Positions 53,486 to 58,689 of a stretch of DNA of 64,000 nt are shown piece by piece. A model generated the notes under the pieces. That model saw only the letters and a program-made list of their open reading frames with translations, was not told where the DNA came from and did not search any database. Source of the DNA: Pseudomonadota bacterium (lineage in GTDB: Bacteria > Pseudomonadota > Gammaproteobacteria > Burkholderiales > Rhodocyclaceae); assembly GCA_018241665.1 (NCBI GenBank), contig JAFEDK010000016.1, positions 1 through 64,000 on the forward strand. Direction: 5' to 3'. Made by a program: the position numbers and the translations under genes. Within the stretch, counting starts at the first letter, position 1; each line of letters opens with the position of its first letter.

Positions 53486-55678
53486 ATGAGCAAACACGCG
53501 ATTCGTGCGCTTTCGCTGGTGGTTTTCGTGGTGGTCGGTGTGTTGCTGGTGCTGTGGTCCAGCCAGCGCGGGGAGCGGCCGGAGGCTTCCGGCGGTGTGG
53601 CGGGGGGCGCCGCCAGGGCCGCGGCCAGCGACGTGCGCGAGCTGCGCCTCGGATTGAACATTGCCGCCGGTAGCGCGCTGCACGCGGCGGCCGTGCGTTT
53701 CGCCGAGCGGGTCGGTGAGCAGAGCAAGGGCCGGCTGAAGGTTACGGTATTCCCCGACCAGCAGCTGGGCAGCGATGACCAGATGCTCGAGATGGCGCGC
53801 AGCGGCAAGCTCGATCTGGTGCTGACGCCTACTGCCAAGCTCAGCTCGGCGATCCCCGCGATGCAGTACGCCGACCTGCCGTTCTATTTCACCAGCCGTG
53901 AAGAACTCTACGCGATGCTCGACGGTGAGCCGGGCCGCATGCTGCTGTCCAAGCTCAACGGGATCGACCTGGTCGGCCTGGCCTTCTGGGAGAACGGCTT
54001 CAAGCAGTTCACCGCCAATACGCCGATCCGCCGTCCGGAAGATTTTGCGAAGCTGCGCATCCGCACGATGAAGAGCCGGATCATCGCCGACCAGTTCGAG
54101 GTGCTTGGCGCGCAGGCCATTCCGATCGATTTCCACGCGACCTACAAGGCACTGGCCGATGGCGCGGTGGATGGCGAGGAAAACCCGCTGGTGGCCATCG
54201 TCGGGATGCGTTTCCACGAGGTGCAGAAGCACCTGACCGTCAGCAACCATGCCTACTTGGCCTATGTGTTCTCGGTCAGCAAGGCGGTCTTCGAGTCCTT
54301 GTCTCCCGAGCTGCGCGAAGTCATCCTGCGTAGCGCCCAGGAACTCACCGTGTGGGAGCGCCAGGAGACCTTCCGTCGCGAGACGCAGTTCATCGAAACC
54401 GTCCGCGCTGCCGGGGTGGAGATCCATACCCTGACGTCGGACGAGCGCGGGGCTTTCCGCAAGGCCCTGGCGCCGATCGCCGACAAGTTCGGCTTCGAGG
54501 TCGGCTACGACCTGCTGGTGAAGACCGAGGAGCTGCGCTATCAGCGGGAGGAGGCGGCCCAGGCCGCCAACCCTGGCCGCCGGCCGGCGGCGCTGGTGCT
54601 GGGTGTCGATGCGGATTTCTCGATGCGTAGTGCGCAGGGCGGCGGCGCCATTTACCGGGGCGTTCAGCTGGCCGCGGAGGAGATCAACGCCGACGGGGGC
54701 GTCCGGGGCGTGCCGCTGCGGGTGATCGGGCTCGATCACGCCACCAATTCCCTGGTCGGGCGCAAGAACCTCGAGCGCTTCGCTGCGATGCCGTCCATGC
54801 TGGGGGTGGTCGGGGGCGTCCAGACGGCGGTGATCGCCGACGAGCTGGATGACATCCATCGTTTGCAGATCCCCTTCCTGATCCCGTGGGGAACCGGGCG
54901 TGGCCTGGTCGAGCATGGCCATCGGCCGAACTACACCTTCCGGGTGTCGGTCAGTGACACGCTGGCAGCACCGTTCCTGCTGGAGCGCGCGTTGCGTGGC
55001 GGCGGACGGGTTGTCGTGCTGCTCGAGCGCTCCGCCTGGGGGCGCAGCAATGACGAGGTGCTCAGGCCGGTCATTGAGCGCTTGCCGGCCGGCCGGGTCG
55101 AGATCGAGTGGTTCAACGTCGGCGATGCCGGCACTGAAGCCAAGCTGCGCGCCATCGGCGGCGGCAATGCCGCGGCACTGGTGCTGGTGGCCAATGCCGT
55201 CGAAAGCCAGAAGATTGTGCAGATGCTGGCACGCCAGGACAAGCCGTTGCCGGTATTCGCCCACGTGGGGCTGACCAGCGGCAACTTCTGGCAGACCACC
55301 CAGGCGGCCCTGCAGCGCGTGGACCTGCGTTTCGTGCAGTCCATCCTGATGGATGATGCGGCGACGCACCCGCGCTTCCGGAAGTTCCTCCTGCGTTACC
55401 GGGAACGCTATGGCCTCGGCCGGGACGAGATGGTGCCGTCGCTGATCGCCACCGTGCATGCCTACGAGCTGACCCACATGCTGGCCCGGGCGGCCCGCCA
55501 GGTGCGGCCCGACGATCACGCGGCGGTGCGCGGCGCGCTGGAAGCGCTGGGGGCCTACCCGGGCGTGCTGCGTGATTACAACCCGCCTTTCACCGCGGAT
55601 CGTCACGATGCGCTTGAGCGCGGACAACTGCGCCTGGCGCGTTTCGACGCCCGCGGCCGGATCGTGATTGCAGAATGA
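53486..55678 (+). CDS. Fused TRAP-type and ABC-type periplasmic solute-binding protein
   Basis: A 730-residue protein. Residues ~8-25 form a hydrophobic helix without a clear cleavage site, so it is probably a membrane anchor. Residues ~52-345 are a DctP-like TRAP solute-binding domain ([23 protein letters not shown] and [30 protein letters not shown], including the conserved Arg that pairs with a carboxylate). Residues ~370-715 are a branched-chain amino-acid-type Peripla_BP_6 domain ([32 protein letters not shown]). The stop overlaps the kinase start by 4 bp. No transporter is encoded nearby, so this is probably a sensor ligand receptor. Confidence 0.85.
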
Positions 55679-58600
55679 AGCTGGCTTTCATCACCCGCAG
55701 TGTCCGGCGGCGGATCACCTGGGTCTTCGGCTTGTTCGTTGCCCTGTCGATGGTCACCGTGGCGACCACGGTGGGTTTTCGCCTGCATTCGGCGATCACC
55801 ACCAACCTGACCCACGAACTGGAGGAGCGGGCCCGCCAGGATGCCCGGCTGCTGCAGCAACGCTTCGAGTACCTGCTCGAGAGCGCGAATGTGCTGGTGC
55901 GCAACCCGCTGGTGGTCAATGGCCTCAACGATGCGCAGGGCCGCGAGACCTACCTGCCGGACCTGATCAAGAACTTCCGCGAAGGACGGGACGTGTTCGC
56001 CGTCGCGCTGCTCGGCTACGACGGCAAGCCGGTCTATTCGACCCTGGAAAACCTGCCCACCTACGGCGATTCGACCGAGCTGCGCAGCACCTTGGCCAAC
56101 GGCGTGGTCAGCTACCTGATCGACCGCAGTCGCGGCCACTGGGTCGTCTTCGTGCCGGTGACCTACTACAGCACCACTCAGGGCGTGCTGGTGGTGGCCT
56201 ACGACCTGGGGGCCGTGGCGCGGCGGGTGCTGCCCGCCGATGCGCTGCTCGGCCACCGCTTGCTGGTGGCCGACCGGACCCTGTTTGCACGCCCCGCTGC
56301 CGATGCCTCCGACCTGCTGATCGCCCGCCAGGCCGTCAGTGACAACAGCAGGAGCTTCCTCGACGGTCTTGGGCTGCAGCTCGAGGTGTCGGCTCCGCGC
56401 CAGCACTATCTGGAGCCGGCGGTCCGCGCGATCGGTGACGTGGCGCTGCTCGGCCTGATCCTGACCCTGGTGGCGATCGCCATCGCCTACTGGATCGGCT
56501 TCTCGGTATCCCGCCCCATCGTGCTGCTGAGGCAGCGGGTGGCGGCTGCCGACGGCAGCCCGGAACGTCACTGTGCGCCGCTGGGCACCCATGACGAGCT
56601 GGAGGAGCTGGCCGAGATGTTCGACCAGCGTACTCACGAACTGCGCGACATCCAGCTCCACCTGGAAGACCTGGTGGAGCAGCGCACCCGCGAACTGGCG
56701 GTGGCCAAGGAGACGGCCGAGGAGGCCAGCCGTTTCAAGAGCAGCTTCCTCGCCAACATGAGCCACGAGATCCGCACGCCGATGAACGCCATCGTCGGCC
56801 TGACCCACCTGATCCGCCGCGCGGCGGTGGATTCCCGCCAGATCGAGCAGCTCGACAAGATCTCCCAGGCAGCACGCCACCTGCTGGGGATCATCAACGA
56901 CATCCTCGACTTCTCGAAGATCGAGGCCGGCAAGCTGACCATCGAGAGTGCGGATTTCGAGCTGGACCGGGTCTTCCGCAACCTCAACGACCTGATCTGC
57001 GACCGGGCTGCCGAGAAGGGGCTGGAAGTCATCAACCGTATCGACCCGGCCATCCCGGTGATGCTGCATGGCGACCAGATGCACCTCGGGCAGATCCTCG
57101 TCAATTTCGCCAGCAATGCGGTCAAGTTCACCGATGCCGGCTGCGTGATCTTCCGGGCACGCCTGCTCGAGGAGGGGACCGGGACGGTAACGGTGCGTTT
57201 CGAGGTCAGCGACACCGGCATCGGCCTCAACGAGGAGCAGCGCAACCGCCTGTTCCAGGCCTTTGTCCAGGCCGATGCGTCGACCACCCGCAAGTTTGGC
57301 GGCACCGGCCTCGGGCTGGCGATCAGCAAGCGCCTGGTCGAGCTGATGGGGGGCCGGGTTGGCGTGGACAGCGAGCTCGGCAAGGGCAGCACCTTCTGGT
57401 TCGAGCTGCCGCTGCAGCGCGCGACCAGTGCGCCCGTTCCACGCGGCCACATGAGGCTGGACGGGAACCTGCACGTGCTGGTGGTGGACGACAACGCCGA
57501 CGCCCGCACCGCGCTGGAGGACATGCTCAATGCCTTCTCGGCGCGGGTGGCGACCGCGGATTGCGGCGAGCACGCCGTGTCGCTGGCCCGTGAGGCGCTG
57601 CTCGGCGGCAGTCCCTTCAACCTGATCCTGATGGACTGGGCGATGCCCGGCATGGACGGCATCGAGACCAGCCGCCGGATTCAGGCCCTCGGCTGCGACG
57701 CGAGGATCATTCTCGCCACCGCCTACAGCAGCGAGTGGACCACCGAACAGCTACACACCATGGGTATCCAGGCCCAGCTCAGCAAGCCGGTCACGCCGTC
57801 GATGCTGCACGACACCATCGTCGAGGTGTTCTCCGGCGCGGAACCGGTGCATCCCGCCGGGCAGGCGGCCATCGACCTGTCGCCGCTGCGCGGCCGTTAT
57901 ATCCTGCTGGCCGAGGACAACCCGGTCAACCAGGAGGTGGCCCTCGCCCTGCTCGAGGAGACCGGTCTTCGCGTGGATCTGGCCAGCGATGGCCTGGAGG
58001 CGCTGCAAAAGGCGTCCACCACGGCCTACGACCTGGTCCTGATGGACGTCCAGATGCCGCACATGGACGGGCTGGAAGCCACCCGGGCGTTGCGCCAGCT
58101 GCCCCAGTGCCAGTCCCTGCCGATCCTGGCGATGACCGCCAACGCCTTCGACGAGGACCGGCGCGCCTGTCTGGAGGCGGGCATGAACGACCATGTCGCC
58201 AAGCCGGTGGATCCGGACAACCTGTTCGCCACGCTGATCCACTGGATGCCGCCGCTTCCGGCGGTGCCTGCCGGAAGCGAGGGCGAACGCGAGGATGCGG
58301 CGCTGATGGCGGGCCAGGAGCAGGCGCTGCGCGAACAGCTGGCGGGCATCGACGGTGTGGACCTGGCCTTCGGGCTGAGCCTGGTGCGTGGCAAGTTCGC
58401 CACCTACCGGCGCCTGCTGGCAATGTTCGTCGATACCCATCAGGACGAGTCGGCGCGGATTCGCGCCGCCCTGGACGCGGGCGACCTGGAAGGTGCCCAG
58501 CGGGCCGCCCACTCCCTCAAGGGCAGTGCGGCCAGCCTTGGCCTCGGGTGCATCCAGCAGGCCGCCTTCGCGGTCGAGGCGCCGCTGAAGGCGCGGGGCG

Positions 58601-58689
58601 AGGATGCAGCGGCGGTGGCGCGGGCGGCGCACGCAGGCCTGGAGCGCGAACTGTCGAGGGTGCTGGAAAAGTTGCGTCCGTTGCTGTGA
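55675..58689 (+). CDS. Hybrid histidine kinase with two receivers and an Hpt domain
   Basis: A 1004-residue sensor kinase. Membrane segments at about residues 14-36 and 252-275 enclose a ~210-residue periplasmic sensor domain. A HAMP-like/coiled-coil linker runs to ~345. The HisKA motif [13 protein letters not shown] has its histidine near residue 364. The ATPase domain carries [15 protein letters not shown] and [12 protein letters not shown]1 (~598-720) has [13 protein letters not shown]2 (~741-860) [10 protein letters not shown], and the C-terminal Hpt has [11 protein letters not shown]. It is coupled to the double solute-binding protein by an ATGA overlap, so that protein is its likely partner. 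The final output regulator is not adjacent. Confidence 0.93.

Follow-up and report, generated by a model that had tools for sequence, protein, structure and literature searches.

A tandem TRAP/Peripla_BP_6 binding protein paired with a dCache hybrid kinase as a candidate two-input sensory subunit

Results

Locus and domain organization

The stretch of DNA analyzed here (the window; 64,000 nucleotides, positions 1 to 64,000 of contig JAFEDK010000016.1 in assembly GCA_018241665.1) comes from a member of the Rhodocyclaceae and carries two overlapping genes on its forward strand (Table 1). The first encodes a 730-residue solute-binding protein (hereafter, the fusion) in which a DctP domain of the tripartite ATP-independent periplasmic (TRAP) type is followed by a Peripla_BP_6 (BP6) domain, and the second encodes a hybrid histidine kinase of 1004 residues. 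The serial arrangement of the two binding domains, the overlap between the stop codon and the kinase start codon, and a kinase with its own periplasmic domain, two receivers, and an Hpt had been proposed in a first-pass annotation of the window, and all are borne out by the open reading frames (ORFs) and the domain scans.

Table 1. Features of the fusion–kinase locus, in window coordinates
Feature	Position	Strand	Basis
Tandem solute-binding protein, 730 residues: N-terminal anchor, DctP, linker helix, Peripla_BP_6	53486..55678	+	ORF, Pfam, AlphaFold2
Predicted membrane anchor, residues 8–26	53507..53563	+	hydrophobicity; model helix 4–27, then low-confidence stretch 25–47
DctP (TRAP-type, solute-binding family 7) domain, residues 59–335; K173, R193, and N233 kept	53660..54490	+	Pfam, alignment
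Helix 341–361 at the junction of the two domains	54506..54568	+	AlphaFold2 model
Peripla_BP_6 (type 1 periplasmic-binding fold) domain, residues 376–697; W468, D491, W518, R520, H593	54611..55576	+	Pfam, alignment
ATGA overlap of fusion stop codon and kinase start codon, 4 nt	55675..55678	+	ORF coordinates
Hybrid histidine kinase, 1004 residues: dCache, HAMP-like region, HisKA, HATPase, receiver, receiver, Hpt	55675..58689	+	ORF, Pfam
Periplasmic dCache-fold sensor domain, about residues 36–247, between two membrane helices	55780..56415	+	AlphaFold2, fold match, hydrophobicity
HisKA, residues 355–419, phospho-site H364	56737..56931	+	Pfam, motif position
HATPase_c, residues 466–581	57070..57417	+	Pfam
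Receiver 1, about residues 601–711, D654	57475..57807	+	domain scan, motif position
Receiver 2, about residues 743–853, D791	57901..58233	+	Pfam, motif position
Hpt, residues 913–997, H946	58411..58665	+	Pfam, motif position

The DctP profile (PF03480) scores 274 bits in the fusion (cut-off 23.4) and the Peripla_BP_6 profile (PF13458) 82 bits (cut-off 31.7), and both profiles are matched by all 33 aligned fusions. Based on its score and the presence of the carboxylate-binding arginine R193, the window protein can be assigned to the DctP family. The AlphaFold2 model of the whole protein is confident (predicted local distance difference test [pLDDT] 91.1; predicted template modeling score [pTM] 0.88). 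Across 65 fusions, the two profile matches are separated by 26 to 45 residues (median 33). The fusion gene in one locus (L024, 7896–10134) is seemingly split into two frames encoding 614 and 149 residues, which may be a real break or an assembly error.

The N-terminal segment of the window fusion is hydrophobic (19-residue Kyte–Doolittle mean of 2.82 for residues 8–26) and lacks an AxA match, which favors an uncleaved membrane anchor. The membrane anchoring claimed in the first-pass annotation is thus supported, and an uncleaved anchor is likely in the window protein. Such an anchor is also suggested across the family, since 30 of the 33 aligned fusions have an N-terminal hydrophobic stretch of 16 to 25 residues (L032 and L037 lack the N-terminus, and the stretch in L043 has 10 residues).

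Hydrophobic peaks near residues 13–35 and 248–285 of the kinase place residues 36–247, approximately, in the periplasm. The AlphaFold2 model of this sensor domain (pLDDT 83.3, pTM 0.64) has KinD (with pyruvate), DctB (with succinate), and LuxQ as its closest folds, and the dCache_1 Pfam match in the kinase lies below the cut-off (24 vs 45 bits). Judged by its domains and motif positions, the protein qualifies as a hybrid histidine kinase with phosphorelay domains and intact phospho-sites.

Conserved pairing with a sensor protein

A scan of genome contigs yielded 65 loci, 36 of which encode the fusion as judged by query coverage, some of them ending at a contig edge; L039 stops inside the first domain, and the others match the DctP part only. 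By their record titles, fusion loci belong to Zoogloea, Dechloromonas, Rhodoferax, Methylobacter, Methylomonas, Azoarcus, Magnetococcales, SAR324, Desulfobulbaceae, Sulfuricurvum, and others, and fusion–sensor pairs range from Pseudomonadota to Campylobacterota. In three overlapping genome draws, with the source genome included, the fusion was found in 11 of 199 genomes at the family level (one ending at a contig edge), 8 of 369 at the class level, and 27 of 398 at the phylum level (24 complete and 3 partial).

A homologous sensor-domain protein follows the fusion on the same strand in 131 of 136 fusion rows (fetched loci, duplicates included), pairing being counted where the sensor domain begins between −400 and +2500 nt relative to the fusion stop. 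The five remaining rows lie at contig ends, with 1 base of DNA left past the fusion. The coupling of the binding-protein gene to a sensor gene is conserved across genomes, and so is the two-domain architecture; both had been put forward in the first-pass annotation as features to look for. The 131 paired rows reduce to 65 distinct complete pairs, a number that counts pairs chosen from sensor-bearing rows and is not itself a test of pairing; DctP, BP6, and sensor stretches shorter than 240, 300, and 200 residues, respectively, and identical BP6 sequences were left out. A possible partner start overlaps the fusion stop as NTGA in 28 of these pairs. The others, with two exceptions (108 and 477), have their nearest start no more than 14 nt ahead of or 56 nt past the end of the stop. 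Pairwise distances of the three domains are correlated, with coefficients of 0.71 for DctP–BP6, 0.79 for DctP–sensor, and 0.91 for BP6–sensor (Mantel p = 0.0005 each).

Starting from the sensor domain, the family draw contained matches in 16 of 199 genomes; the 10 strong ones (E < 1e-50) all belong to fusion genomes, and the 6 weak ones adjoin a protein carrying BP6 only. The phylum draw gave 36 sensor rows with E < 1e-25; by coordinates, 33 of them adjoin a fusion, and 1 starts at a contig end. Two sensor kinases occur alone, at L189 (5635–8988) and L190 (1387–5334); the gene upstream of the former, on the opposite strand, appears by eye to encode a SulP-like permease.

Permease genes

To look for permeases, we used DctM and PF02653 (LIV permease) profiles built from the source genome's own genes and searched the window and 59 loci, comprising 55 with a whole or partial fusion, 2 with a lone sensor kinase, and 2 covering the rest of the source contig (some short or duplicate). 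No DctM match was obtained in the 59 loci, compared with 26 of 28 ordinary DctP-only control loci, and the LIV permease profile matched in one of the 59, at the locus edge. On the 99-kb source contig (C7), which extends about 53 kb to one side of the fusion and 43 kb to the other, there was no match to either profile; both DctM genes of the source genome lie on another contig (C22), and none of its 22 PF02653 matches falls on C7. The absence of a transporter subunit noted in the first-pass annotation, which had left room for a TRAP or ATP-binding cassette (ABC) permease just outside the window, thus extends to the whole contig for the two permease families searched. Identification as part of a TRAP transporter (DctPQM) was rejected on the DctM counts, and a LivJ-type system with a nearby LivHM-type permease on the single edge match and the lack of one on C7.

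The source genome encodes two further DctP proteins on contigs without a DctM match. One (L127, contig C54, 7548–8645, reverse strand) is divergent from genes for a PAS histidine kinase and a LuxR-type response regulator, and the other (L128, contig C17, 7673–8746, forward strand) directly follows fumarate reductase-like genes (FAD_binding_2/Succ_DH_flav_C and Fer2_3).

Ligand sites of the two lobes

Position 173 of the TRAP lobe is K or R in 64 of the 65 fusions, R193 is present in 51, and N233 in 52; we take these three positions to be the carboxylate-binding residues of TRAP proteins. Mean identities in the 51 R193-bearing fusions are 0.61 for DctP, 0.41 for BP6, and 0.40 for the sensor domain, compared with 0.33, 0.39, and 0.32, respectively, in the 14 fusions without R193, a contrast that reflects few lineages since R193 changes only twice on the DctP tree and the two groups are clustered. 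The conservation of the TRAP lobe in the R193-bearing group fits a constraint on ligand binding. The TRAP arginine has been lost in a divergent group of fusions comprising L191, L192, and L198–L202.

In the BP6 lobe, the position matching the acidic residue of LivJ, which presumably holds the α-ammonium group of amino acids, is non-acidic in the 63 of 65 fusions listed (W in 47, V in 6, H in 4, G in 3, Q in 2, and M in 1; V in the window protein), and assignment as a LivJ-type amino-acid binding protein is not supported on this ground. W468, D491, W518, R520, and H593 are 92 to 100% conserved in R193-bearing fusions and 95 to 100% in BP6-only partners; some of them align to pocket positions of LivJ-type proteins. 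Together, these conserved residues and the non-acidic position speak against a simple amino acid as the ligand and point to some other conserved class of ligand. The two-ligand reading of the first-pass annotation therefore holds in part: the carboxylate-binding residues are kept in 51 of 65 TRAP lobes, and the amino-acid-like ligand proposed for the BP6 lobe is not supported.

BP6-only pairs and the origin of the fusion

We found 19 distinct pairs of a BP6-only protein and a homologous sensor, after leaving out BP6 stretches shorter than 300 residues and identical sequences. These pairs differ from the fusion pairs in that they lack the TRAP lobe. In L114, L111, L113, and L196, for example, the BP6 protein is encoded directly upstream of the homologous sensor domain, and kinases as well as GGDEF proteins are among the outputs of such partners. 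In eight of nine BP6-only N-termini, the hydrophobic stretch is followed by an AxA match, as in a cleavable signal peptide. No DctP-only protein was found before a sensor in 41 DctP-only ORF rows. Since BP6-only pairs were found and DctP-only pairs were not, the dCache sensor domain probably had the BP6 lobe as its original partner, and the TRAP lobe seems to be a later input, with its carboxylate-binding residues kept in most lineages.

The source contig also encodes a single-domain Peripla_BP_6 protein (L091, at about 87833–89026), about 29 kb from the fusion–kinase pair and divergent from genes for a PAS histidine kinase and a receiver protein.

Conservation of the sensor domain

Beside R193-bearing fusions, 16 columns of the periplasmic sensor domain reach a conservation of 95% or more. 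D86, R90, and Y93 are conserved at 90 to 100% beside these fusions and at 84 to 89% beside BP6-only partners. In contrast, L67, L136, R137, Y165, and T167 are conserved at 98 to 100% beside R193-bearing fusions and at 0 to 21% beside BP6-only partners. The latter set also occurs in SAR324, Campylobacterota, and two deltaproteobacterial rows, and in 17 sensors thinned to below 50% identity it is unchanged except in one sequence at L136 and R137. From these patterns we infer that D86/R90/Y93 may contact the BP6 lobe and L67/L136/R137/Y165/T167 the TRAP lobe.

Outputs and neighboring genes

Hybrid kinases carrying one or two receivers are common among the sensor partners; they often have an Hpt, and extra PAS or GAF domains occur in some partners. 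The partner at L042 carries GGDEF-EAL behind the sensor domain. Those at L191, L192, L198, and L202 have PAS and no kinase domain in the Pfam scan, and a receiver-HisKA-HATPase protein adjoins them. Among 128 scanned neighbor proteins, Response_reg was the commonest family (21), and HD_5 (10), HD (10), and GGDEF (5) were among the best 25 of 165 families listed. These proteins came from 35 genome-contig loci; L009, L011, L026, and L032, proteins shorter than 150 or longer than 900 residues, and three long proteins were left out. A cyclic di-GMP output is therefore likely in part of the family.

Directly downstream of the kinase in the window lies a second binding-protein/sensor pair on the forward strand (58785–59864 and 59861–61588, with a 4-nt overlap), encoding a PotD/PotF-like SBP_bac_8 protein and a membrane HAMP-GGDEF protein with a GGDEF motif and a weak dCache match. 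This pair recurs in L008, L009, and L011 and, on the published outline of that system, is similar to NspS-MbaA, a polyamine pair. About 3 kb upstream of the fusion, the opposite strand (48379–50310) encodes a further hybrid histidine kinase that has one receiver.

Discussion

The sequence comparisons indicate that the 730-residue protein probably serves the adjoining dCache kinase as a dedicated subunit with two solute-binding domains and a membrane tether. The first-pass annotation had interpreted the pair as a dedicated two-ligand sensor, and the constant pairing with a sensor and the lack of transporter genes in our searches speak for this interpretation, apart from the amino-acid ligand, which is not supported.

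In the mechanism we propose, each lobe would close on its own ligand, the TRAP lobe on a carboxylate, probably C4-dicarboxylate-like, and the BP6 lobe on a small molecule that may be held by the conserved W, D, R, and H residues. The pair of lobes would dock on the periplasmic dCache domain, and their combined state would be passed through the second membrane helix and the HAMP-like segment to H364, from where phosphoryl transfer could proceed via D654/D791 and H946 to a response regulator. More tentatively, and with slightly less than even confidence, we suggest that the family represents a widespread class of two-input receptors, in which a tethered TRAP/BP6 fusion would form a stable complex with the dCache domain, its lobes sitting on separate conserved patches (around D86/R90/Y93 and around L136/R137/Y165/T167), and a single kinase or cyclic di-GMP enzyme could thereby integrate two chemically different nutrients.

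Several observations weigh against this interpretation. The fusion is patchily distributed, being present in three of six genomes of the source genus in the family draw, and two strong sensor kinases in the phylum draw (L189 and L190) have no adjoining binding protein. A loose AxA match in or near the hydrophobic stretch makes signal cleavage possible in 15 of the 33 aligned fusions. R193 is lost in 14 of 65 fusions, and in these 14 several BP6 pocket residues vary as well (43–64% conservation of the five residues named above). Both sensor sets also vary beside the same 14 fusions, with conservation of 64% for L67, 43% for L136, 29% for R137, 14% for Y165, 43% for T167, 43% for D86, 64% for R90, and 0% for Y93. 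The sensors of BP6-only pairs are more divergent overall (mean identity 0.215, compared with 0.399, or 0.335 after thinning), and the fusion-specific columns may therefore partly reflect clade history. Finally, the domain scan showed no response regulator adjoining the kinase in the window, so that a cyclic di-GMP output at this locus would be assigned by analogy.

It is conceivable, if unlikely, that the BP6 lobe alone senses and that the TRAP lobe serves as a rigid spacer or as a scaffold for docking, with no further need of a ligand. The 19 BP6-only pairs, the persistence of fusion and pairing in the 14 proteins without R193, and the BP6–sensor distance correlation, which is the highest of the three, would fit this explanation. 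However, the TRAP lobe is the best conserved part of the 51 R193-bearing proteins, though not of the remainder, and its three putative carboxylate-binding positions are largely retained. The converse, in which the TRAP lobe alone senses and the BP6 lobe is a docking adaptor to the dCache domain, seems rather improbable. It would account for BP6 being the constant partner of the sensor and for the missing amino-acid-type acidic residue, but the retention of W468, D491, W518, R520, and H593 in both R193-bearing fusions and BP6-only partners suggests a retained ligand.

We give still less credence to a dCache domain that binds a small ligand of its own, with the fusion trapping ligand in the periplasm or exerting negative regulation. 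The close folds KinD and DctB do bind pyruvate and succinate directly, but a buffer would explain the constant pairing and the correlated divergence less well than a subunit does, and LuxQ, also a close fold, is described as driven by a binding protein (PMC6321045). Finally, although both domains derive from transporter binding-protein families, it is extremely improbable that the fusion works with a TRAP or ABC permease whose gene lies elsewhere, with the kinase merely regulating it, given the DctM counts, the location of the source genome's DctM genes on another contig, and a fused, probably anchored protein whose constant neighbor is a sensor protein.

If the protein is indeed a dedicated double subunit, the fusion family would be a conserved case of two unrelated binding-protein families merged into one sensory subunit, which may let one signaling pathway read two nutrients at once. 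The natural variants, with a TRAP lobe that is intact, lacks the arginine, or is absent, make signal integration directly testable. Our data also suggest that proteins of this family named TRAP or ABC substrate-binding by profile scans should not be counted as transporter parts. Signaling driven by binding proteins is thought to be widespread, although no more than about 10 characterized sensor-kinase examples are counted in PMC9602780.

Comparison with known systems

Our literature search found no description of a DctP–Peripla_BP_6 fusion, in line with the first-pass annotation, which knew of none. In the BvgS family, tandem Venus-flytrap domains control a kinase with a receiver and an Hpt (PMC5829827). 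As outlined there, both BvgS domains are SBP_bac_3 and lie inside the kinase chain, whereas here a TRAP and a BP6 domain form a separate protein beside a dCache kinase; a BvgS-type kinase was rejected because Pfam shows DctP and Peripla_BP_6 on a protein of their own. GlnPQ, as summarized in PMC8025302, likewise has two substrate-binding domains in series on one chain but feeds an ABC importer, whereas the fusion is unaccompanied by a permease of the two families searched. Also comparable is the extracellular ligand-binding receptor of Desulfohalobium retbaense (PDB 5ere), in which residues 33–196 give a weak BP6 profile match (E 9e-5) and residues 353–593 of the same chain align with our sensor model; unlike the fusion, it shows no TRAP domain among its match rows.

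LuxP–LuxQ, TorT–TorS, and XylFII–LytS use a single binding domain, whereas here two domains of different families are joined in one, probably anchored, protein, and the contact with the kinase is predicted. The proposed way of working would nevertheless be like that of these three systems, each of which combines a binding protein with a sensor kinase (as presented in PMC6321045).

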